Source of the DNA: Defluviitaleaceae bacterium
Lineage (GTDB): Bacteria > Bacillota > Clostridia > Lachnospirales > UBA5962
NCBI GenBank assembly: GCA_009779915.1
Contig: WRBA01000013.1
Location: 1-64,000 of the forward strand
Reading direction: 5' to 3'
DNA: 64,000 nt
Positions 4,377-43,854 of this stretch are shown here, piece after piece. Both the position numbers and the translations under genes were made by a program. How positions within the stretch are numbered: the first letter of the stretch is position 1; each line of letters begins with the position of its first letter. The notes beneath the pieces were generated by a model that made no database searches, was not told where the DNA came from, and saw only the letters and a list, made by a program, of their open reading frames with translations.

Positions 4377-5765
4377 ATGATTGATAAAAACGATTTACTT
4401 AAAAAACTCCCTAAAATGGATGAACTTATTTTAGATGAGCGGATTGCAAAAGCCATTGCAGATTATGGCAGAAACGCAACCCTTGAGGCTTTGCGTACTT
4501 CAATTGACAAGGTACGGGCTGGAATTCTTTCAGGTATCCATAAAGAGCCTGATGCGGTACAAATTATAGAGGATGCTTTAAAGCTTGCAAAGACCAACTC
4601 TCGTATGAATTTACGTAAAGTTATAAACGCAACAGGGACTATACTACACACAAACCTTGGTCGTGCAAGGCTTTCTGAGAGTGCCTGTAAGGCAGTTTGC
4701 GAAATTGCTAAAAACTATTCCAACCTGGAGTACAATGTGGAAGAAGGTCGGCGTGGAGAGCGGTATGACGCGGTGTCCGAACTGCTTCGAGAGCTTACAG
4801 GAGCAGAAGATTCCTTGGTGGTTAATAATAACGCCGCTGCGGTTCTCCTTGCGCTTAGTGCTTTGGCGAAGGATAAGCGTGTTATAGTTTCCCGCGGGGA
4901 GCAGGTTGAAATAGGCGGTATGTTTCGTGTGCCTGAGATAATGAATCAAAGCGGCAGTATTTTAGTGGAGGTGGGATGTACCAATAAAACCCATTATGCT
5001 GACTATGAAGCCGTGCTGGATGAAAACAGTGTACTTTTAAAAGTTCACACCAGTAATTATAAGATTATTGGTTTTACAGAGGAAGTGCCCTTGAAAGAAT
5101 TGGTTGAGCTTGGTAAAAAATACGAAACTCCTGTCATATACGATTTAGGCAGCGGAAGTTTTATTGATTTTTCTCTTTATGGCATTCAAGGAGAGCCTAC
5201 GGTTAAAAAAGTTGCAGCTGACGGGGCGGATGTAATCACTTTTAGCGGAGACAAGCTTTTAGGAGGACCTCAAGCGGGAATTATATTGGGTTCTAAGAAA
5301 TATATCGATATTATGAAAAAACACCCGCTGACCCGCGCTTTTAGGATAGATAAAATGACTATTGCCGCTTTGGAAGCCACTTTGCGTGAGTATTTGGAGG
5401 AGGATAGGGCAATTAAAAACATTCCGGTGCTAAACCAAATTACTGCCGATATGGCTGAGCTTCATGATAAGGCGAAGAGGCTTTTTGAAAAGGTAGAAAA
5501 GGCAGGTTCAAATGCTGATATGACCATAACAGAAGACAAAGCAACAATAGGCGGAGGCTCGATGCCGGGGCAGTTTATTGACACCTATTGTGTGGAAATA
5601 AAGCCATACAATTTAAGTGTTAACGATATGGAAAGCAGGCTTCGTAAGCTGGATGTTCCTATTATTGCGCGGATTGCTAATGATGCGCTTATTTTAGACG
5701 TACTTACTGTTGATGAAGCTGATTTTGAATATATAGCTCGTAGTATATATGAGGTAATTTCATGA
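4377..5765 (+). CDS. selA: L-seryl-tRNA(Sec) selenium transferase
   Basis: 462 residues, the usual bacterial SelA length. It is the PLP enzyme that converts seryl-tRNA(Sec) to selenocysteinyl-tRNA(Sec) using selenophosphate. The N-terminal tRNA-binding part precedes a fold-type I aminotransferase-like domain with the RKVINATGTILHTNLGRA signature (about 80-97). The PLP lysine is K293 in FSGDKLLGGPQ. It overlaps selB by four bases and lies beside tRNA-Sec and two selenoprotein genes, which fixes the assignment. The selD gene for selenophosphate synthesis is not in this window. Confidence 0.97.
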   Translation: MIDKNDLLKKLPKMDELILDERIAKAIADYGRNATLEALRTSIDKVRAGILSGIHKEPDAVQIIEDALKLAKTNSRMNLRKVINATGTILHTNLGRARLSESACKAVCEIAKNYSNLEYNVEEGRRGERYDAVSELLRELTGAEDSLVVNNNAAAVLLALSALAKDKRVIVSRGEQVEIGGMFRVPEIMNQSGSILVEVGCTNKTHYADYEAVLDENSVLLKVHTSNYKIIGFTEEVPLKELVELGKKYETPVIYDLGSGSFIDFSLYGIQGEPTVKKVAADGADVITFSGDKLLGGPQAGIILGSKKYIDIMKKHPLTRAFRIDKMTIAALEATLREYLEEDRAIKNIPVLNQITADMAELHDKAKRLFEKVEKAGSNADMTITEDKATIGGGSMPGQFIDTYCVEIKPYNLSVNDMESRLRKLDVPIIARIANDALILDVLTVDEADFEYIARSIYEVIS

Positions 5766-7672
5766 ATAATAACGTAATTATAGGTACTGCCGGGCATGTT
5801 GATCACGGCAAAACCAGCCTTATAAAAGCCCTTACAGGGATTGATACCGACAGACTAAAAGAGGAGAAAAAAAGAGGAATAACCATAGAGCTTGGCTTTG
5901 CCTATCTGGATTTTGGAGATGGGATGAAGGTAGGTATAGTTGATGTACCCGGACATGAGAAATTTGTAAAAAATATGCTTGCCGGAGCCGGAGGTATAGA
6001 CATAGCTATTTTAGTGGTTGCGGCTAATGAAGGGGTTATGCCTCAGACCATTGAGCATTTTGGGATTTTAAAGCTTTTGAATATTAAAAAGGGCGTTATA
6101 GTCATAACAAAGACTGATATGGTAGATGATGCTTGGCTTGCCATGATTAAAGAAGATGTGAGCAAGCTGGTTTTGGGCAGTACCCTTGAGGGTGCGGCTG
6201 TACTTGAAACATCTGTGCATAATAATAAGGGGCTTGATGAGCTTAAAGCACACCTCTATGACCTTGTGAAGGATGCATCCAGCGATGGTTTGGAAAGCCC
6301 TGCAAGACTGCCTGTTGACAGGGTGTTTTCCATAGACGGTTTTGGCACAGTTGTAACAGGTACACTTATTGAGGGGGTTTTAAACAAAGGGGACTCCCTC
6401 GAGATTTACCCTTATGGGCATATGAGCAAAGTCCGTAATATTCAAGTACATGACGAGGACGCGGATACAGCTTATGCCGGGCAGCGGGTTGCCATAAATC
6501 TTGCGGGTGTAAGGAAAGATATGATAGAGCGGGGCGCGGTAGTCGCGCAGCCTAAAAGTATGGTAAATACTTATATGCTTGACGTGTTCTTGCAAGTGCT
6601 GCCGGAATGCGGCCGGACTGTAAAAAATAACAGCCGTGTTCATTTATACCACGGGACGAGAGATATATTGTGCAAAATAATACTTTTGGATAAGGATGAG
6701 CTTTCTCCCGGGGAAGCGGGTTTTGCCCAGCTTCGCCTAGAGGAAGAAGGGGCTTTTAAATACGGTGACCGTTTTATTGTACGGTTTTACTCTCCTCTTG
6801 AAACCATTGGCGGCGGCATGATTTTAGATGTAAAACCTCGAAAGCATTCGAGGTACAAAAAAGATGAGCTTGTAAAAAATCTTGGATTGATTAAAGATGG
6901 CAGTATTAAAGAGCGGATTTACGCCATTCTTTCAGATAGGGCAAGGCAAATGCCGCAAATTTCTCAAATGGCTGTTTTGGCTAATGTTGGCGGGTCAGAC
7001 ATAGAGAAAGCCTTAGATAAATTGAGCGGAGAAGGCAAAATTGTTTGCTTTGAAAGCAATGACAGCAAGTGGATTACAACTATGCTACATTATAAATCCA
7101 TTTGTGATAAATCGAATACAATACTCCAAAATTTTCACAAAAACAACGCTTATAAAAAGGGCATGAATATTGAGGAGTATAAGAATAAAGCCTTTGCAGG
7201 GGTTGTTGATTACGCGTTAAATCCATTAATTGATATTATGATTAAAGATAAGAAAATCAAATCAGAGCAGCTTTTAATATCCGCTTACGAGTTTAAGATA
7301 AAGACTGATAATGTCTATAACGAGCTGTCAGCTAAAATAGAAAAAGTCTATAAAGACGCAGGCGTTTTGGTACCTAATAAAGACGATGTTCTCAAAATCT
7401 TTAATGACAAAAACAAGCAAAAAGTAATGGAATCTATGATTAGCGAAGGTATATTAGTTATGGTGGATAAGCAGCTTTTATTTCACAAAGATATATTCGA
7501 GGACTGTATTGGGAAGATTAAAGATTTTATCAGCCAAAATGGTGAAATTACTCTTGCCCAGTACCGCGATATGATTGGTGCATCAAGAAAATATGCCGTT
7601 GCAATACTGGAATATTGTGATACGAAGAAAATAACCAAAAAAATTGGTGACAGCCGGGTTCTTTATCGGTAA
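5762..7672 (+). CDS. selB: Selenocysteine-specific elongation factor SelB
   Basis: 636 residues. SelB delivers Sec-tRNA to the ribosome at UGA codons marked by a SECIS hairpin. The N-terminal GTPase domain shows [13 protein letters not shown] (G1), DVPGHEKF (G3) and TKTD (G4). Beta-barrel domains follow, then a lysine-rich C-terminal region expected to hold the winged-helix repeats that bind SECIS RNA. The start overlaps selA by four bases, so the two are translationally coupled. The C-terminal part is more divergent than the G domain, as is normal for the family. Confidence 0.97.
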
Positions 7673-7691
7673 ATTTTACGGCAATGACTTG

Positions 7692-7720
7692 TTGACAAGC
7701 CCTTTTTCTTGTGATAATAT
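7692..7720 (+). promoter_or_regulatory. Sigma-A promoter for tRNA-Sec
   Basis: TTGACA (7692-7697) and TAATAT (7715-7720) are separated by exactly 17 bp, a near-ideal housekeeping promoter. It starts just after selB and sits about 34 bp upstream of the mature tRNA-Sec 5' end. No other promoter is evident before the glycine riboswitch, so it may also drive the grd operon. Confidence 0.8.
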
Positions 7721-7753
7721 TTATGGGAATGGAAAGTGAAAGTAGGTTTTTAT

Positions 7754-7851
7754 GGGAGTAGATGGGTGGCTGGTGTGCCCTCCGGTCTTCAAAACCGGTA
7801 ATAGCGGTTTAGACCCGCTTAGGTGGGTTCGATTCCCACATACTCCCGCCA
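7754..7851 (+). tRNA. selC: tRNA-Sec (anticodon TCA)
   Basis: A 98-base tRNA with encoded CCA. Anticodon TCA sits in a CCGGT/ACCGG stem and reads UGA. It has the long variable arm typical of tRNA-Sec (AGCGG/CCGCT stem). The T stem is GTGGG/CCCAC around TTCGATT. The acceptor GGGAGTA pairs with TACTCCC; the eighth acceptor position characteristic of bacterial tRNA-Sec is a G-A mismatch here. The G discriminator is the base expected for tRNA-Sec. It lies between selB and the glycine riboswitch. Confidence 0.96.
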
Positions 7852-7879
7852 AAGTATTAATTTAATAGTGGATGACGGT

Positions 7880-7995
7880 TGCGTGAGAGACTGATTTTTC
7901 AGCGCCGAAGGGTTCAAGCATTCCGGTGTGCCGATCGGATTGCGAAAATCTCAGGCAAAAGAATCGCAATCTGACAGCCTCTGAAGGTATAGCCG
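7880..7995 (+). promoter_or_regulatory. Glycine riboswitch (single clear aptamer)
   Basis: The conserved core is readable: TGAGAGACTGA, then GCGCCGAAGGGTTCAAGC, then AATCTCAGGCAAAAGAA, then a closing CCTCTGAAGG. These match the conserved blocks of glycine (gcvT-type) aptamers. One aptamer is clear; the following bases could form the ghost-aptamer helix of singlet types. It stands 28 bases after tRNA-Sec and ahead of a terminator and grdX. Glycine is the substrate of the downstream reductase, so the logic fits glycine-induced expression. Confidence 0.93.
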
Positions 7996-8006
7996 ACAGA
8001 GTTAGC

Positions 8007-8049
8007 GGCGTCATATGTGTTGTAAAACATTATATGGACGCCATTTTTG
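8007..8049 (+). terminator. Expression-platform terminator of the glycine riboswitch
   Basis: GGCGTCATAT (8007-8016) pairs with ATATGGACGCC (8032-8042, one bulged G) and is followed by ATTTTTGTT. It sits between the aptamer and the grdX start, as expected for transcription control. Glycine binding presumably favours an antiterminated state, which would be an ON switch as in other glycine-degradation operons; that direction is inferred. Confidence 0.85.
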
Positions 8050-8082: not shown

Positions 8083-8457
8083 ATGGGCTTTGTGGTAATT
8101 ACTAATAACACAATGCTAAAAGATAAATACGACGGTGAGTTTGATGTTTTGTATCACAATGTATCTCTTCGTGAAATATTTGTAATTGTCCGCGATAAAG
8201 TACATGCCGGGCATGAAATTTTGACTCACCCTATGTCAGGGAGTGTTAAACCCAACGAAACTCCATTTAAAACCGTATTTATAACCAAGGAAAAGGGTAA
8301 GTTAAATATGGATTCCGTAAGCCTTATAGAAGGGGCAATAGCTACTTGTGATAAATTCGTAAATAGAGATATTGATTACGGCAGCAAAACAGAGGATTTT
8401 CAGCTAATAGACTTATCTTTGGCCGAATCGGCACTTGCTTCTCTTAGAGCTTTTTAA
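8083..8457 (+). CDS. grdX: GrdX family protein
   Basis: 124 residues, a small protein routinely found as the first gene of glycine/sarcosine/betaine reductase operons; its biochemical role is not established. The sequence opens with a VVITNN strand and contains the LTHPMSGSVKPNETPFKT segment typical of the family. The ATG follows a weak purine-rich site (GGAAGTAGG). It is the first gene after the riboswitch and is followed at 56 bases by grdE. Confidence 0.88.
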   Translation: MGFVVITNNTMLKDKYDGEFDVLYHNVSLREIFVIVRDKVHAGHEILTHPMSGSVKPNETPFKTVFITKEKGKLNMDSVSLIEGAIATCDKFVNRDIDYGSKTEDFQLIDLSLAESALASLRAF

Positions 8458-8513: not shown

Positions 8514-9818
8514 TTGAAACTAGAACTCGGGTACATTTTCATTAAAGATATCCAGTTTGGCAATGTTTCAAAAGTTGAGGGTGGGGTTCTTTATGTAAAT
8601 AAAGATGAACTCAAAAAACTTGTTATGGAAGATACTGTTATCGCTTCTGTGGATTTTGACATTGCAAAGCCAGGTGAAAGTGTACGTATTACACCAGTGA
8701 AAGATGTTATTGAACCAAGGGTAAAAGTTGAGGGTACCGGCGCAATGTTCCCCGGTATGCTTAACAAAGTCGAAACAGTTGGCAACGGTAAAACTCATGT
8801 ACTTAAAGGTGCTGCTGTTGTTACATGCGGTAAAATCGTTGGCTTCCAAGAAGGTATTATTGATATGTCCGGTGAAGGCGCGAAATATACACCTTTCTCT
8901 GAGACATTAAACCTTGTTATGGTTGCTGATCCTGTAGAAGGCACAAAACAACATGACCATGAAAAAGCTATCCGTATGGCTGGTCTTAAAGTTGCTGCTT
9001 ATATTGGCGAACTTGGCAAAAATGTAAAAGCTGATGAATACCACACATTTGAAACTCCTAACATGGTTGAAGGTATGAAACTTTATCCAAACCTTCCGCG
9101 TGTTGCTTATGTACTGATGCTTCAAACTCAAGGGCTTCTTCATGATACCTATGTTTACGGTGTTGATATGAAGCAGTCTATCTCTACCTTGATTTATCCG
9201 ACAGAAATTATGGACGGCGCTATCCTTAGCGGCAACTGTGTTTCTGCTTGTGATAAAAACACAACTTATCACCATCAAAACAATCCTGTAGTTCATGATA
9301 TGTTTGATGCTCATGGTAAAACTATCAATTTTGTAGGCGTTATCATCACTAATGAAAATGTTTATTTGATGGATAAAGAGCGTTCTTCTGACTGGTCAGC
9401 TAAAATGGCTGCTATGCTAGGTCTTGACGGCGTTATTATTTCTCAGGAAGGTTTTGGAAATCCTGATACCGACCTTATTATGAACTGTAAAAAAATTGAA
9501 GCTAAAGGCATTAAAACTGTTATAATCACTGACGAGTATGCCGGTCGTGACGGAAAGAGCCAGTCTCTTGCCGATGCTGATGTGGCTGCAAACGCAGTTG
9601 TAACAGGCGGAAATGCTAATGAAGTTATTGTTCTTGGATCGATGAAGAAAATTATCGGTAAAGCTGATACTACTGTTGTAAACACAATTGCAGGAGGCTT
9701 CGGTTCTGACCCTGTACATGGTGCCAGCTTAAAAGATGACGGCAGTATAATTGTTGAAATTCAAGCTATCACAGGGGCAACTAACGAACTTGGCTTCAAT
9801 AAAATGAGCGCGAGATAA
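8514..9818 (+). CDS. grdE: Glycine reductase component B, alpha/beta precursor (GrdE)
   Basis: 434 residues. GrdE is a proprotein cleaved to two subunits; the new N-terminus becomes a pyruvoyl group that forms a Schiff base with glycine. The cleavage site is readable as LSGNCVSACDKN, with Cys242 as the residue that turns into pyruvoyl by family precedent. The start is TTG with GGAGG eight bases upstream, and the N-terminal MKLELGYIFIKDIQFG fits the family. It partners with selenoprotein GrdB encoded 21 bases downstream. Cytoplasmic. Confidence 0.96.
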   Translation: MKLELGYIFIKDIQFGNVSKVEGGVLYVNKDELKKLVMEDTVIASVDFDIAKPGESVRITPVKDVIEPRVKVEGTGAMFPGMLNKVETVGNGKTHVLKGAAVVTCGKIVGFQEGIIDMSGEGAKYTPFSETLNLVMVADPVEGTKQHDHEKAIRMAGLKVAAYIGELGKNVKADEYHTFETPNMVEGMKLYPNLPRVAYVLMLQTQGLLHDTYVYGVDMKQSISTLIYPTEIMDGAILSGNCVSACDKNTTYHHQNNPVVHDMFDAHGKTINFVGVIITNENVYLMDKERSSDWSAKMAAMLGLDGVIISQEGFGNPDTDLIMNCKKIEAKGIKTVIITDEYAGRDGKSQSLADADVAANAVVTGGNANEVIVLGSMKKIIGKADTTVVNTIAGGFGSDPVHGASLKDDGSIIVEIQAITGATNELGFNKMSAR

Positions 9819-9839: not shown

Positions 9840-11144
9840 TTGGGAAAAATTAAAGTTGTACACTATGTAAATCAATTTGCAGCCGGTATAGGCGGCGAAG
9901 AAATGGCGCATGTTACTCCTGAGCTTAGGGATGGCACTGTAGGCTCTGGTCAGGCTTTTAATATGGCTTTTGGCGAAGAAGCTGAAATCGTTGCCACTGT
10001 TGTTTGCGGCGATAACTATTTTAGTGAAAACCTTGATAAAGCTAAAGCTGAAGTTTTAGATATGATTAAATCCAAATCTCCCGATGTTGTTATAGCCGGT
10101 CCTGCGTTTAATGCTGGTCGTTATGGTTTCGCTTGCGGTACTGTAGCTGAGGCTGTTGAGGTTGAGCTTGGTGTTCCTGCTTTCACAGGTATGTTTGAAG
10201 AAAACGCAGGCGTTGAATTTAAAGGTAAAGTTGTTATAGTTCCCACTAAAAACTCTGCCGCCGGTATGAGAGATGCGGTTGCTAAAATGGCTCCTTTGGC
10301 TATTAAATTGGGCAAAGGCGAAAAACTTGGTCCAGCTTTTATGGAAGGTTATATGCCAGGTATCCGCGTAAACTTCTTTGACAATGAAAGAGGTTCTAAG
10401 CGTGCGGTTGATATGCTTGTTAAAAAACTTAAAGGCGAAGAGTTTGTAACCGAATATCCGATGCCTGATTTTGACAGGGTTGAGCCTAATCCTGCTGTTA
10501 AAGATTTATCTAAAGCTAAAGTTGCCCTTGTTACATCAGGCGGTATCGTACCTAAAGGTAATCCTGACCGTATCGAGTCTTCTTCCGCTTCTAAATACGG
10601 CGAGTATGTTATCGACGGCGTTATGGATTTAACAGAAGCTACTTACGAAACTGCTCACGGCGGATATGACCCTGTTTATGCTAATTTAGACGCCGACAGA
10701 GTTCTTCCTGTTGATGTTATGAGAGATTACGAAAAAGAAGGCAAAATCGGCTCTCTTCACGGAAAATTCTATACAACTACAGGTAACGGTACATCTGTAG
10801 CTAACTCTAAAGCTTATTCCGCTGAATTTGCCGCTAAACTTAAGGCTGACGGAGTTGATGCCGTTATCCTTACCTCCACCTGAGGTACCTGTACTCGTTG
10901 CGGTGCAACGATGGTTAAAGAAATTGAGCGCGCAGGCATACCTGTAGTTCATATTTGTACAGTAGTACCGATTTCTCTTACAGTTGGCGCGAATAGAATA
11001 GTCCCCGCTATTGCTATTCCTCATCCGCTGGGTAACCCTTCTCTTGGTAAAGACGAAGAGAAGACCCTCAGAAGAAGTCTTCTTGACAAAGCCCTTAAAG
11101 CGCTTTCTACGGAAGTTTCAGGGCAGACTGTTTTTGAGAATTAA
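9840..11144 (+). CDS. grdB: Glycine reductase component B gamma subunit, selenoprotein GrdB
   Basis: 434 residues including selenocysteine at codon 348 (TGA at 10881-10883). The frame stays open past the TGA to a TAA at 11144. The local motif is T-S-T-U-G-T-C-T-R-C-G, with U plus two cysteines in the UxxCxxC pattern of GrdB. The selenolate attacks the activated substrate to give Se-carboxymethyl product for GrdA. The start is TTG after GGAGAGGAGG. A hairpin lies 11 bases after the TGA (see SECIS entry). A naive annotation would end the gene at 10883 and call a separate 77-codon piece. Confidence 0.96.
10881..10911 (+). promoter_or_regulatory. SECIS-like hairpin behind the grdB UGA
   Basis: TCGTTGC (10895-10901) pairs perfectly with GCAACGA (10905-10911) around a GGT loop, starting 11 bases after the TGA. 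Bacterial SECIS elements are short hairpins inside the coding sequence at this distance, with a G in the apical loop that SelB reads. Position and shape fit; SelB binding is inferred. Confidence 0.7.
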
Positions 11145-11352: not shown

Positions 11353-12294
11353 ATGAGCAAAGTATATGACCTTATTATTATAGGTGCCGGTCCGGCCGGT
11401 CTTTCAGCCGGTTTATACGGCGGCAGAGCCCGTGTAGACACTTTGGTAATCGAAAAAGCTAAAGACGGCGGTCAAATTGCCACGACGGACGAGATAGAAA
11501 ACTATCCGGGCGGCTTAGAAGAAGACAGCGGTCCAGCTCTTATTGCCAGAATGACTGAGCAGGTTAAAAAGTTTGGTGCTGAGAGAGTTTCTGATACGAT
11601 TACCAAGGTAGAGCTTCAAGGGGATGTTAAAAAAGTTTACGGTGAAAAAGGTGAATATCACGCGAAAGCGGTTATAATTGCTACCGGTGCCGTGCCAAGG
11701 CTTTTAGGCGTTCCCGGTGAGAAAGAGTATACGGGCAAAGGCGTTTCCTACTGTGCAACTTGTGACGCTGCATTCTTTGAAGATTTTGAGGTTTATGTAG
11801 TAGGCGCAGGAGACTCCGCTGTTGAAGAGGCTATGTTTATCACCCGTTACGCGAGGAAAGTTACACTTCTTGTTCGCGGCGGTGAGCTTACAGCGGCTAA
11901 GAGTATCCAGCAAAAAGCATTTAAAAATGAAAAGCTTGACTTTTTGTGGAATACTCAAGTAACCGAAATTAAAGGCGAAGATGGTATGATGTCAAGTATA
12001 GTAATAGAAAATTCCGAGACCAAAGAACGCAGAGAAATATTTGCTGATGAAGAAGACGGCGTTTTCGGTTTATTCGTATTTATAGGTTTTATTCCGCTTA
12101 CAGGGCTTTTTGAAGGTCAGGTTGAAATGGACCGCGGATATGTAATTGCTGATGATAATATGAGAACTAATATTCCCGGCGTATATGTTGCCGGTGACTG
12201 TAGGGTGAAAATGCTTCGCCAGGTAGTTACCGCATGTGCTGATGGTGCTATTGCCGCAACTCATGCTGAAAAATATCTTGAATCACTTGAGTAA
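11353..12294 (+). CDS. trxB: Thioredoxin reductase-like flavoprotein of the glycine reductase operon
   Basis: 313 residues, the length of low-molecular-weight thioredoxin reductases. FAD site GAGPAGLSAG (11-20), redox pair C134-A-T-C137, and C-terminal FAD motif YVAGDCR are present. The glycine-rich loop GAGDSAVEEA is kept in the NAD(P)H domain. However, the HRRxxxR stretch that binds the NADPH 2'-phosphate is replaced by LVRGGELTAAKSI. It may therefore not use NADPH and could be a ferredoxin-linked type known in clostridia. It supplies electrons to TrxA, which re-reduces GrdA. ATG start with GAGGGGAA upstream. Confidence 0.93.
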   Translation: MSKVYDLIIIGAGPAGLSAGLYGGRARVDTLVIEKAKDGGQIATTDEIENYPGGLEEDSGPALIARMTEQVKKFGAERVSDTITKVELQGDVKKVYGEKGEYHAKAVIIATGAVPRLLGVPGEKEYTGKGVSYCATCDAAFFEDFEVYVVGAGDSAVEEAMFITRYARKVTLLVRGGELTAAKSIQQKAFKNEKLDFLWNTQVTEIKGEDGMMSSIVIENSETKERREIFADEEDGVFGLFVFIGFIPLTGLFEGQVEMDRGYVIADDNMRTNIPGVYVAGDCRVKMLRQVVTACADGAIAATHAEKYLESLE

Positions 12295-12318
12295 AAACTT
12301 TTGAAGGAGGTCACTCAA

Positions 12319-12636
12319 ATGTTAGAAGTTGGAAAAGAAAATTTTGATGTTGAAGTATTGGAAGCTTCAGGCAAAATACTTGTAGATTTCTACGGCGAAG
12401 GCTGCGAGCCTTGTAAAGCCCTTATGCCTTTTGTTCATGAAATGGCTGAAAAATACGGTGACAAAATTAAATTTGTAGCTTTAAATACTACAAAAGCAAG
12501 AAGACTTGCTATCTCTCAAAAAGTTATGGGTCTTCCTGTTATAGCTGTTTATGAAAACGGTCAAAAACTTAAAGAGTTAGTTAAAGAAGAATGTACTGAA
12601 GCTGCTATTGAAGAGCTTATAAACGCTCACATTTAA
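12319..12636 (+). CDS. trxA: Thioredoxin of the glycine reductase operon
   Basis: 105 residues from the ATG eight bases after GGAGGT; an upstream in-frame TTG lacks a site of its own. Thioredoxin fold with active site G-C-E-P-C-K in place of the usual W-C-G-P-C-K, a variation known in thioredoxins tied to selenoprotein A of amino-acid-fermenting clostridia. The cis-proline region reads MGLPVIAVYENG. Twenty-four bases after trxB, so co-transcribed. Role: reduce the selenide-sulfide of GrdA after each turnover. Confidence 0.93.
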   Translation: MLEVGKENFDVEVLEASGKILVDFYGEGCEPCKALMPFVHEMAEKYGDKIKFVALNTTKARRLAISQKVMGLPVIAVYENGQKLKELVKEECTEAAIEELINAHI

Positions 12637-12813: not shown

Positions 12814-12877
12814 ATTACAAGGTTATTTTGGCGTATTATGCCTTAATAATAGAAAGAAAACGAAAGGAGTAGCCGCA

Positions 12878-13348
12878 ATGAGCATTTTAAAGGGTAAAAA
12901 AGTTATCGTTATTGGCGATCGCGACGGTATTCCCGGCCCAGCCATTGATGAATGCGTTAAAACAGCTGGCGGCGAAGTAGTATTCTCTTCAACGGAATGC
13001 TTCGTCTGAACGGCCGCCGGTGCTATGGACCTGGAAAATCAAAAGAGGGTTAAAGAATTCGCGGAACAACTTGGAGCTGAGAATATAGTAGTAGTTCTCG
13101 GTGCCGCAGAAGGTGAAGCAGCAGGACTTGCCGCTGAAACCGTTACCGCTGGTGACCCTACTTTTGCAGGACCATTAACAGGAGTCCAGTTGGGACTCAA
13201 AGTATATCACATATGTGAAGAAGAAATGAAATCAGAAGTTGATGCAGCAGTTTATGAAGAGCAAATTTCCATGATGGAAATGGTTTTGGACGTGGATGAT
13301 ATCGCTAATGAAATGCAAGCTATCAGAAACGAACATACAAAGTTCTAA
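12878..13348 (+). CDS. grdA: Glycine/sarcosine/betaine reductase selenoprotein A (GrdA)
   Basis: 156 residues with selenocysteine at codon 44 (TGA at 13007-13009). The context [13 protein letters not shown] matches the family. The ATG follows AAAGGAG. GrdA takes the carboxymethyl group from GrdB as a selenoether and passes an acetyl group to GrdC/GrdD, being oxidised to a selenide-sulfide in the process. The frame before the TGA and the frame after it are continuous through 13348. A clear SECIS hairpin is not as obvious here as in grdB. Confidence 0.97.
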
Positions 13349-13599: not shown

Positions 13600-15126
13600 A
13601 TGAACTGTGTAGTTAAAGGTAGTGCGTACACCCTTGTTAATGCCCCTGATATGCTATTGCATAACGGCACCACACAAACAACGGAAATGATTGTAAACCC
13701 TGAGAGTGATTATTTAAAGCAATTACCCAAACATTTGAGGAAATTTGAGGATGTAGTTAATTATTTACCAAACCAAGTTTATATTGGCAATAAAACACCG
13801 GAAGACCTTGCAGGAGTAGAGCTTCCTTGGTATAACAAGCCTGTTGCCGGTGCGGATAGATTCGGCAAATTAGGCGAAATTATGCCTCAGGATGAGTTTT
13901 ACTTGCTTATGCAGGCAATGGATGTCTTTGACCTTGTTAAACTTGAGAAAAATTTTGTGAATAAAGTAAAGCCGGCTTTTGAAAAGCACCCGCTTATGGA
14001 CGCGGAGATGGTTGCCCGCGTTAAAGAAGGCGTAGATAAGTCAGAGATTGAGAAATTCGTAAACGAAGAACATGCGGAAGCCCTGTATCAAGACAATGAG
14101 CTTATTGGCTATGTTAAAAAAGCCCATGATATTGATGTTAATCTTTCAGCGCATGTTATTCATGAAAATCTTGTTTCAAAAGCTACTTGTGTTTTATCTA
14201 TGCTTCATTTGGTTAAAACATCCGGCATAAATAAAAATGAAGTAGATTATGTTATCGACTGCTCAGAGGAAGCTTGCGGCGATATGAACCAAAGAGGCGG
14301 CGGCAACTTTGCTAAAGCAGCGGCTGAAATGACTGGCTTTATGAAAGCAACCGGCTCTGACGTTCGCGGTTTCTGTGCGGCTCCCGTTCACGCGATTACT
14401 ATAGCGGCGTCTTTAGTGGCGGCGGGTACATTTAAAAACGTTGTTGTTGCGGCCGGCGGCTCTACCGCTAAGCTTGGTATGAACGGTAAAGATGCTGTTA
14501 AAAGAGATACCCCTCTTATTGAGGACGTACTTGGCGGCTTCGCTGTTCTCATTTCCGAGGACGACGGCAAAAGTCCAATTATTAACCTTGAGATTGTTGG
14601 GCGTCATATGGTAGGCACAGGTTCTGCGCCTCAAGCGGTTATTTCCTCACTTGTGGCTGACCCGCTTTCAAATGCAGGGCTTAAATTAACTGATATTGAT
14701 AAATACTCCGCTGAAATGCATAACCCTGATATTCCAGGTATCGGCGATGTTCCGCTGCAAAACTATAAAATGATTGCAGCTTTAGCTGTTAAACAAGGGG
14801 ATATTGAAAAATCAGACCTTGCAGCTTTCCCTGTTAAGCACGGTATGAACGGCTGGGCACCTACACAAGGGCATATCCCTTCAGGGGTTCCTTTTGTTGG
14901 TTTTGCGAGAGAAGATATTATGTCAGGCAAGATTAAAAATGCTATGATAGTAGGCAAAGGCAGCCTTTTCCTTGGTCGTATGACTAATCTTTTTGACGGC
15001 GTTTCCTTTATTATGGAGACTAACAAAGGCGAGGGTGCCAAAGGCAGCGGTGTTTCCGAAGAAGAAGTTAAACAACTTATTGCTAAGGCTATGAAAGAAT
15101 TTGCCTCGAGTCTGATGTCTGAATAG
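13600..15126 (+). CDS. grdC: Glycine reductase component C, beta subunit (GrdC)
   Basis: 508 residues from the ATG nine bases after ACGGAGG; upstream in-frame codons run through a foldback element and are rejected. GrdC is related to ketoacyl-ACP synthase (thiolase-fold) enzymes and, with GrdD, turns the acyl-selenoprotein A intermediate into acetyl phosphate. Family features include the N-terminal hydrophobic MNCVVKGSAYTLVNAPDM and a CSEEACGDMNQRGGGN block around the expected thiolase cysteine region. GrdD starts 10 bases downstream. Confidence 0.95.
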   Translation: MNCVVKGSAYTLVNAPDMLLHNGTTQTTEMIVNPESDYLKQLPKHLRKFEDVVNYLPNQVYIGNKTPEDLAGVELPWYNKPVAGADRFGKLGEIMPQDEFYLLMQAMDVFDLVKLEKNFVNKVKPAFEKHPLMDAEMVARVKEGVDKSEIEKFVNEEHAEALYQDNELIGYVKKAHDIDVNLSAHVIHENLVSKATCVLSMLHLVKTSGINKNEVDYVIDCSEEACGDMNQRGGGNFAKAAAEMTGFMKATGSDVRGFCAAPVHAITIAASLVAAGTFKNVVVAAGGSTAKLGMNGKDAVKRDTPLIEDVLGGFAVLISEDDGKSPIINLEIVGRHMVGTGSAPQAVISSLVADPLSNAGLKLTDIDKYSAEMHNPDIPGIGDVPLQNYKMIAALAVKQGDIEKSDLAAFPVKHGMNGWAPTQGHIPSGVPFVGFAREDIMSGKIKNAMIVGKGSLFLGRMTNLFDGVSFIMETNKGEGAKGSGVSEEEVKQLIAKAMKEFASSLMSE

Positions 15127-15136
15127 GGGTGAGAAA

Positions 15137-16300
15137 ATGTCTAACAATGTGGAAAAAACAATCGCAAAAATATTTAATGAAGTAGCCGATGGGCTTATGA
15201 CCGGTCAAATGGGTAAATTGCCTAAAATAGCCCTGACAGGTCTCGGCTCAGAGCATGGAGAGAAAGAGCTTTTGGATGCAGCACTTATTGCCGCTAAAAG
15301 CCCTATTGATGTTAATTTTATAGGTACTATGGACGCTCCCGGCTTAACTGCTCATAAAGTTGCAAGTGAAGAGGAATGTCATAAAAAAATGGATGCGCTG
15401 CTTGCTTCAGGGGAAGTTGATGCGGCTGTTACAATGCATTATCCTTTCCCAATTGGGGTATCTACTGTAGGCAGGGTAAATACTCCAGGCACAGGTAAGG
15501 AGATATTTATAGCAACAACAACCGGCACATCTTCAACAGACAGAGTAGAGGCTATGGTGAAAAACACTTTATATGGCATCATTACAGCTAAAGCTTGCGG
15601 CATTAAAAACCCTACCGTTGGCATTATTAACATTGATGGTGCTCAGCAAACTTTTAACAATTTAAAAACCCTTAAAGAAAACGGCTACGATATAAACTTT
15701 GCTGAGTCTAAACGTTCCGACGGCGGTTGTATATTCCGCGGCAACGATATCCTTACAGGTGCGGCGGATGTTGTGGTTTGCGACTCACTCACAGGGAATT
15801 TGATTATTAAAATGTTATCTTCCTTTACAACCGGCGGCAGCTATGAAAGTGTTGGATACGGCTATGGCCCAGGTGTTGGCAAAGGTTATGATAAAATAGT
15901 TATGATAGCGTCTCGTGCCTCCGGTGCCCCTGTTGTTGCCGGTGCTATCAAATTTGCCGCTGACCTTGTAAATGGCGGTTATCATAAGGTTCTTACTGAT
16001 GAGTTTAAAAAAGCTGAAAAAGCCGGACTTGGAGATGTTCTTGCCAAAATTAAAGCGGCAAATGCTAAATCTGCGCCGTCTGACGCAGAAGAAGTTAAAG
16101 CTCCCCCTAAAGAAGTCGTTACGGCTGAAATCGCAGGTATCGAAATTATGGAGCTTGATGATGCGGTTGCAAGTCTTTGGAAAGCGGCAATTTATGCCGA
16201 AAGCGGCATGGGCTGTACAGGTCCGATAGTCCTTGTATCCGAGGCTAATAAGGATAAAGCTTTTGAAATATTAGTGAAAGCCGGATTTGTTAGTGCTTAG
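15137..16300 (+). CDS. grdD: Glycine reductase component C, alpha subunit (GrdD)
   Basis: 387 residues. GrdD has a PlsX-like phosphoacyltransferase fold and carries out the phosphate-dependent release of acetyl phosphate. The C-terminal AESGMGCTGPI contains Cys360, which corresponds to the catalytic cysteine reported for this subunit in Eubacterium acidaminophilum (there Cys359). A low-complexity Lys/Ala/Pro linker at about 300-325 separates the core from this C-terminal segment. The ATG follows GGGGTGAG. It is the last gene of the operon, followed by a strong terminator. Confidence 0.95.
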   Translation: MSNNVEKTIAKIFNEVADGLMTGQMGKLPKIALTGLGSEHGEKELLDAALIAAKSPIDVNFIGTMDAPGLTAHKVASEEECHKKMDALLASGEVDAAVTMHYPFPIGVSTVGRVNTPGTGKEIFIATTTGTSSTDRVEAMVKNTLYGIITAKACGIKNPTVGIINIDGAQQTFNNLKTLKENGYDINFAESKRSDGGCIFRGNDILTGAADVVVCDSLTGNLIIKMLSSFTTGGSYESVGYGYGPGVGKGYDKIVMIASRASGAPVVAGAIKFAADLVNGGYHKVLTDEFKKAEKAGLGDVLAKIKAANAKSAPSDAEEVKAPPKEVVTAEIAGIEIMELDDAVASLWKAAIYAESGMGCTGPIVLVSEANKDKAFEILVKAGFVSA

Positions 16301-43782: not shown

Positions 43783-43854
43783 GCGCGAATGGCTCAGTGG
43801 TAGAGCATCGCCTTGCCAAGGCGAGGGCCGGGAGTTCGAATCTCCTTTCGCGCT
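43783..43854 (+). tRNA. tRNA-Gly (anticodon GCC)
   Basis: 72 bases without encoded CCA. Acceptor GCGCGAA pairs with TTCGCGC. The anticodon arm is TCGCC-TTGCCAA-GGCGA, giving anticodon GCC. The T arm reads CGGGAGTTCGAATCTCCTTT with a short stem. A T-run follows directly after the discriminator and may serve as part of its terminator. Confidence 0.95.

Follow-up and report, generated by a model that had tools for sequence, protein, structure and literature searches.

Bacterial transcripts can carry both a tRNA and an mRNA, as with tRNA-tufB in E. coli, where the tRNA is excised from the 5' portion of an RNA that also codes for protein. The gene for tRNA-Sec (selC) is known from selA-selB-selC operons, in which it is grouped with genes of the selenocysteine machinery and with neighbouring selenoprotein genes (PMC1794560), and it can also be embedded in or overlap selB, an arrangement that has been proposed to balance tRNA-Sec against its partner gene (PMC13188914). 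Glycine riboswitches are likewise known to precede grd operons, and in C. difficile glycine induces grd (PMC11477304). Also described are singlet type-1 glycine riboswitches, which have one aptamer with a ghost aptamer on its 3' side and of which those surveyed mostly control the glycine cleavage system (PMC6944388). Here we describe a locus that combines these parts, with tRNA-Sec placed between a promoter and a glycine riboswitch. The combination, conserved in one family, appears undescribed: we found no account of a tRNA-Sec gene in this position in the literature searched, most subscription papers lying outside that search.

The DNA analysed, which we call the window, is a stretch of 64,000 nt comprising positions 1-64,000 of the forward strand of contig WRBA01000013.1 from a Defluviitaleaceae bacterium (assembly GCA_009779915.1). 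Its plus strand carries, in order, selA, selB, a promoter, tRNA-Sec, a glycine riboswitch, a ghost-aptamer hairpin, a terminator and grdX-grdE-grdB-trxB-trxA-grdA-grdC-grdD. The two protein genes upstream code for L-seryl-tRNA(Sec) selenium transferase (selA, 4377..5765; NCBIfam TIGR00474, 596 bits) and for the selenocysteine-specific elongation factor (selB, 5762..7672; NCBIfam TIGR00475, 372 bits). Downstream, the NCBIfam models together with Rfam SECIS_4 give a glycine reductase operon: grdX (8083..8457; NF038093, 117 bits); a grdE-type gene for the reductase component B alpha subunit (8514..9818); grdB (9840..11144; TIGR01917, 694 bits), a selenoprotein gene with an in-frame TGA just 5' of 10884, where a SECIS_4 element begins (RF01990, 10884-10921); the genes for thioredoxin reductase (trxB, 11353..12294; TIGR01292, 359 bits) and thioredoxin (trxA, 12301..12636; NF047697, 153 bits); a second selenoprotein gene, grdA, with a TGA read as Sec (12875..13348, the 5' end being approximate; NF040748, 276 bits); grdC (13606..15126; NF040746, 778 bits); and grdD (15137..16300; NF040747, 563 bits). 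The grdE-type gene has its best match in NF040793, at 623.9 bits, short of the 780 bits set as exception cut-off for the sarcosine form, and its protein is 68-77% identical to the best 80 public homologues. The grouping of tRNA-Sec with genes of the selenocysteine machinery and with adjacent selenoprotein genes recalls the selA-selB-selC operons; unlike those, for which the available part of the source mentions neither a riboswitch nor a terminator separating tRNA-Sec from the selenoprotein genes (PMC1794560), the window has both.

The tRNA-Sec gene occupies 7754-7851 and has the anticodon TCA (ARAGORN), scoring 66.5 bits with RF01852 against a gathering score of 47. It is followed by an AU-rich linker at 7852..7871, which runs for 20 nt from the CCA to the riboswitch, and by the aptamer of the glycine riboswitch at 7872-7976 (RF00504, 51.6 bits against a gathering score of 32, E 1e-7), whose P1 helix pairs 7877-7883 with 7965-7971. 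A search of the whole assembly returned a single tRNA-Sec passing the 1e-9 threshold and a single glycine riboswitch. The conserved core of the riboswitch, GAGAG, CGCCGAAGG and CUCAGGCAAAAG, is common to an alignment of 31 sequences, and the window riboswitch scores 88.3 bits against a covariance model made for this analysis, which includes the window sequence. An initial sequence-only reading of this DNA had put 28 bases between tRNA and riboswitch; the gap proved shorter, at 20 nt from 7851 to the Rfam start at 7872, or roughly 25 nt if counted to where P1 pairing begins, the figure of 28 reflecting the choice of riboswitch start.

On the 3' side of the aptamer, a hairpin of the form CTCTG...CAGAG at 7979..8001 takes the place of a second aptamer and is, as a sequence pattern, common to the window and the loci L009 and L013, which belong to two further genomes of the family, G001 (L009 and L092) and G003 (L013). 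By this pattern the riboswitch can be classed as a putative singlet type-1 element, with a single aptamer and a 3' ghost aptamer as in the published definition (PMC6944388); unlike the surveyed members of that type, it would control grd. The second aptamer is reduced to the short hairpin in the window, L009 and L013, and the grd riboswitches of L014, L015, L032 and L041 have a long second-aptamer-like part. An intrinsic terminator then follows at 8007..8048 (stem 8007-8042, about -15 kcal/mol, then TTTTT at 8044-8048), as in riboswitches that attenuate transcription. When tRNA and riboswitch were folded jointly, they were predicted to form separate, largely independent domains with 1.7-2.5 expected cross pairs, so that co-transcription should disturb neither fold.

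The promoter lies at 7692-7720, its -35 box 19 nt beyond the end of selB, with a predicted start near 7727. The first reading had called it a strong promoter of the form TTGACA-17-TAATAT, and this was borne out: it matches the sigma-A consensus at 10 of 12 positions in a plain consensus scan, has a TG before the -10 box, and reaches a matrix score of 9.1; when the 100 nt preceding the tRNA were shuffled 1000 times with dinucleotides preserved, no shuffle attained this score (mean 4.1). The matrix is an approximation based on the known sigma-A consensus, and the plain scan agrees with it. As that reading had also noted, no second promoter is visible between tRNA and riboswitch, the best site able to start transcription between tRNA and aptamer scoring 2.3 (p 0.37), at the level of chance; from the CCA to grdX of the window, no promoter scored above 3.4. 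The scan found no terminator in the linker either, and the first terminator after tRNA-Sec is the riboswitch's own. By sequence, then, the locus has the make-up of a co-transcribed tRNA-mRNA unit, with a promoter upstream of the tRNA and neither promoter nor terminator between the parts. At 7688-7712 of the window, the -35 box and spacer are overlapped by inverted repeats (CTTG-CAAG and ACAAG-CTTGT), for which inspection by eye showed no counterpart in G001 or G003; they may be an operator or a product of chance.

Among the seven genomes in our family set, a glycine riboswitch scores above threshold in three, and in each of these it lies 16-29 nt after the single tRNA-Sec gene. The order of promoter, tRNA-Sec, 16-29-nt linker and riboswitch was found in all three same-family genera that have both elements, namely those of the window, G001 and G003; the layout is seen in these three genomes only, and all are related. 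All three promoters have a perfect TTGACA as -35 box, a 17-nt spacer and a TG before the -10 box, which reads TAATAT in the window, TACCAT in G001 and TATCAT in G003, and their scores range from 9.1 to 11.2; at each locus, none of 1000 shuffles did equally well. Sites in the three linkers score 2.3-3.5 (p 0.18-0.40), none of them above chance. From selA to grdD the gene order of G001 is that of the window, with some 580 nt between selB and the tRNA. G003 has no selAB at the locus and its upstream ORFs lie on the opposite strand; its upstream neighbours having changed, the block from promoter through tRNA and riboswitch to grdX is kept there without the neighbours that it has in the window. Another member of the family, G005 (L011 and L093), has a tRNA-Sec gene and no glycine riboswitch; its tRNA is followed at 44 nt by a terminator and beyond that by selB. 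Between the riboswitch terminator and grdX, G001 has a candidate second promoter (TTGTTA-17-TATACT, score 7.2, L092:6562-6590), of which the window has no counterpart and which, judged from its sequence, could bypass the riboswitch in G001.

As a control set we used eighty grdE loci from public genomes, most of them with an upstream glycine riboswitch. Among 60 riboswitch copies that are not tightly linked to tRNA-Sec, the best promoter mostly stands 0-106 nt before the aptamer, with a few outliers at 195-220 nt. At the three linked loci it stands 120, 138 and 147 nt before the aptamer, or 22, 40 and 49 nt once the 98 nt of the tRNA are subtracted. The distance from promoter to aptamer exceeds that of other such riboswitches by about one tRNA length, and the simplest picture is of a tRNA-Sec gene placed within the usual promoter-to-aptamer interval. 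A terminator scan of 97 tRNA-Sec entries, a few of them duplicates, found a terminator within 80 nt downstream in 53, including that of G005 (44 nt); at the three linked loci no terminator precedes that of the riboswitch, which lies 191-204 nt beyond the tRNA. Since many other tRNA-Sec entries also have no terminator by this simple scan, its absence alone is weak evidence. Taken together, promoters, linkers, terminators and distances in the three genera support the shared tRNA-Sec/riboswitch transcript suggested at the outset from the window's sequence.

Equally tight linkage of tRNA-Sec and riboswitch was found nowhere outside the family in non-exhaustive samples of 392 genomes of the order and 391 of the class, in 80 tRNA-Sec neighbourhoods scanned with the glycine riboswitch model, or with a phylum-wide pattern applied to a sample that did not contain G001 and G003; in this outside-family survey, part of the listed tRNA-Sec loci were judged from coordinates only or left out. 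L061 and L065, where tRNA-Sec lies about 90-200 nt before a riboswitch, were rejected as the same layout because promoter-like sites (7.4 and 7.0) lie between; their detection indicates that the scan can find such a promoter when one is present. L042, alike in motif, was set aside too, since the model finds no riboswitch there and a separate terminator follows its tRNA. Other orders of sel and grd genes were seen, namely tRNA-Sec, selB, riboswitch and grdX in L094 (genome G016) and selA, tRNA-Sec, selB and riboswitch in L021, where homology to proteins of the window, judged by eye, gave the gene names. The selenocysteine machinery repeatedly adjoins the glycine reductase operon.

Could these loci hold two transcription units instead, with tRNA-Sec made from the 7692-7720 promoter and riboswitch and grd from a weak or non-sigma-A promoter in the 3' half of the tRNA or in the linker? 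Elsewhere, most tRNA-Sec genes are indeed directly preceded by their own promoter-like site, and L061 and L065 show that a second promoter-like site (7.4 and 7.0) can lie between tRNA-Sec and riboswitch. Neither the window nor G001 nor G003, however, has a linker site above chance; the -35 box of such a promoter would have to sit within the tRNA, and no terminator parts tRNA from riboswitch, all of which makes two units distinctly unlikely. We hold it very unlikely that the main source of the RNA is read-through from selA-selB, in one long operon of selA, selB, tRNA-Sec, riboswitch and grd to which the 7692 promoter would contribute little. Operons of selA, selB and selC are known from other bacteria (PMC1794560), and only 19 nt separate selB from the -35 box, a gap in which the scan lists no terminator; yet the strong promoter is kept in G003, which has no selAB at the locus, and in G001, where selB and tRNA are about 580 nt apart. 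Read-through of this kind likewise leaves tRNA and riboswitch on one transcript.

We therefore think it quite probable that the glycine reductase transcription unit begins with the tRNA-Sec gene. RNA polymerase would start near 7727 at a single housekeeping-type promoter and make a precursor consisting of tRNA-Sec, the AU-rich linker and the riboswitch. If glycine is absent, it would stop at the riboswitch terminator (about 8048), which would also terminate tRNA-Sec; if glycine is present, it would continue into grdX-E-B-trxBA-grdA-C-D, where the products of grdA and grdB need selenocysteine. The locus resembles the grd riboswitch of C. difficile in ligand class and target operon, and glycine raises grd transcription there (PMC11477304); it is from this same operon that we infer the glycine-ON direction for the window. 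Simple folding of truncated window leaders did not show a clear pair for glycine-ON switching (an antiterminator); it suggested that the 5' arm of the terminator can pair with ATGACG in the leader, a predicted pairing that, taken alone, would not point to glycine-ON. Given the anatomy of the locus, and given that C. difficile induces grd in response to glycine (PMC11477304), every transcript should carry the tRNA and only those made with glycine should go on into grd.

As the shared promoter lies upstream of the tRNA, each grd mRNA that starts from it would be accompanied by at least one tRNA-Sec. This would be a one-way insurance, with no grd mRNA from the promoter lacking tRNA-Sec and with tRNA-Sec possible without grd, and the supply of tRNA-Sec for the rest of the cell would be independent of glycine; the linkage by itself does not make tRNA-Sec glycine-responsive. 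The arrangement differs from known ones in several respects. The sources on the C. difficile grd leader mention no tRNA gene there, whereas here tRNA-Sec lies between promoter and aptamer; selC within selB has another partner and geometry and is without ligand control; and, unlike E. coli tRNA-tufB, the window would have a metabolite-gated terminator between tRNA and mRNA.

How the tRNA would be released from such a precursor bears on its 3' end. In bacteria studied, an encoded CCA acts as an RNase Z anti-determinant and blocks the enzyme. The CCA is encoded in 93 of the 95 tRNA-Sec genes examined, that of the window among them, and in none of 12 sampled genes for other tRNAs of the window genome (including 43783-43854 of the window and L002-L008). 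The tRNA-Sec of G005, which is not linked to a riboswitch, is also without an encoded CCA. Genes for RNase Z and RNase Y were found in the assembly, which is 94% complete, and one for RNase PH was not. Because the CCA is encoded, RNase Z is unlikely to cut the 3' end and is not favoured despite the presence of its gene. The 5' end would probably be freed by RNase P, and for the 3' end an endonuclease cut in the AU-rich linker (by RNase Y, for example) followed by trimming is the more likely route and a better guess than RNase Z. Processing of the tRNA may also be linked to release of the riboswitch leader, as the first reading proposed.

It is possible, though we doubt it, that the shared transcript is a passive leftover of sel and grd clustering and has no selective value, a question of the meaning of the sharing and not of its existence, so that this view and our preferred one overlap. 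In its favour, sel genes adjoin grd in various orders at other loci (L094 and L021); against it, the linker stays at 16-29 nt, with no promoter or terminator, across three genera in which upstream genes and sequence have changed. We regard as rather unlikely a further step, a mutual influence between the state of the riboswitch and the maturation of tRNA-Sec: either short terminated and long read-through precursors would be processed unequally, so that glycine tunes the supply of mature tRNA-Sec, or removal of the tRNA would alter riboswitch folding or grd mRNA stability. If true, a shared precursor would here put the expansion of the genetic code under metabolite-linked control.

In this organism, an operon that makes two selenoproteins seems to begin with the sole tRNA-Sec gene, placed upstream of a metabolite-gated terminator that would double as the terminator of the tRNA. 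Such a layout would be a simple way of guaranteeing tRNA-Sec before a main demand for it begins. It offers a testable case of tRNA maturation in an RNA where a structured riboswitch comes next, and of how an expanded genetic code may be balanced with one of its main users.
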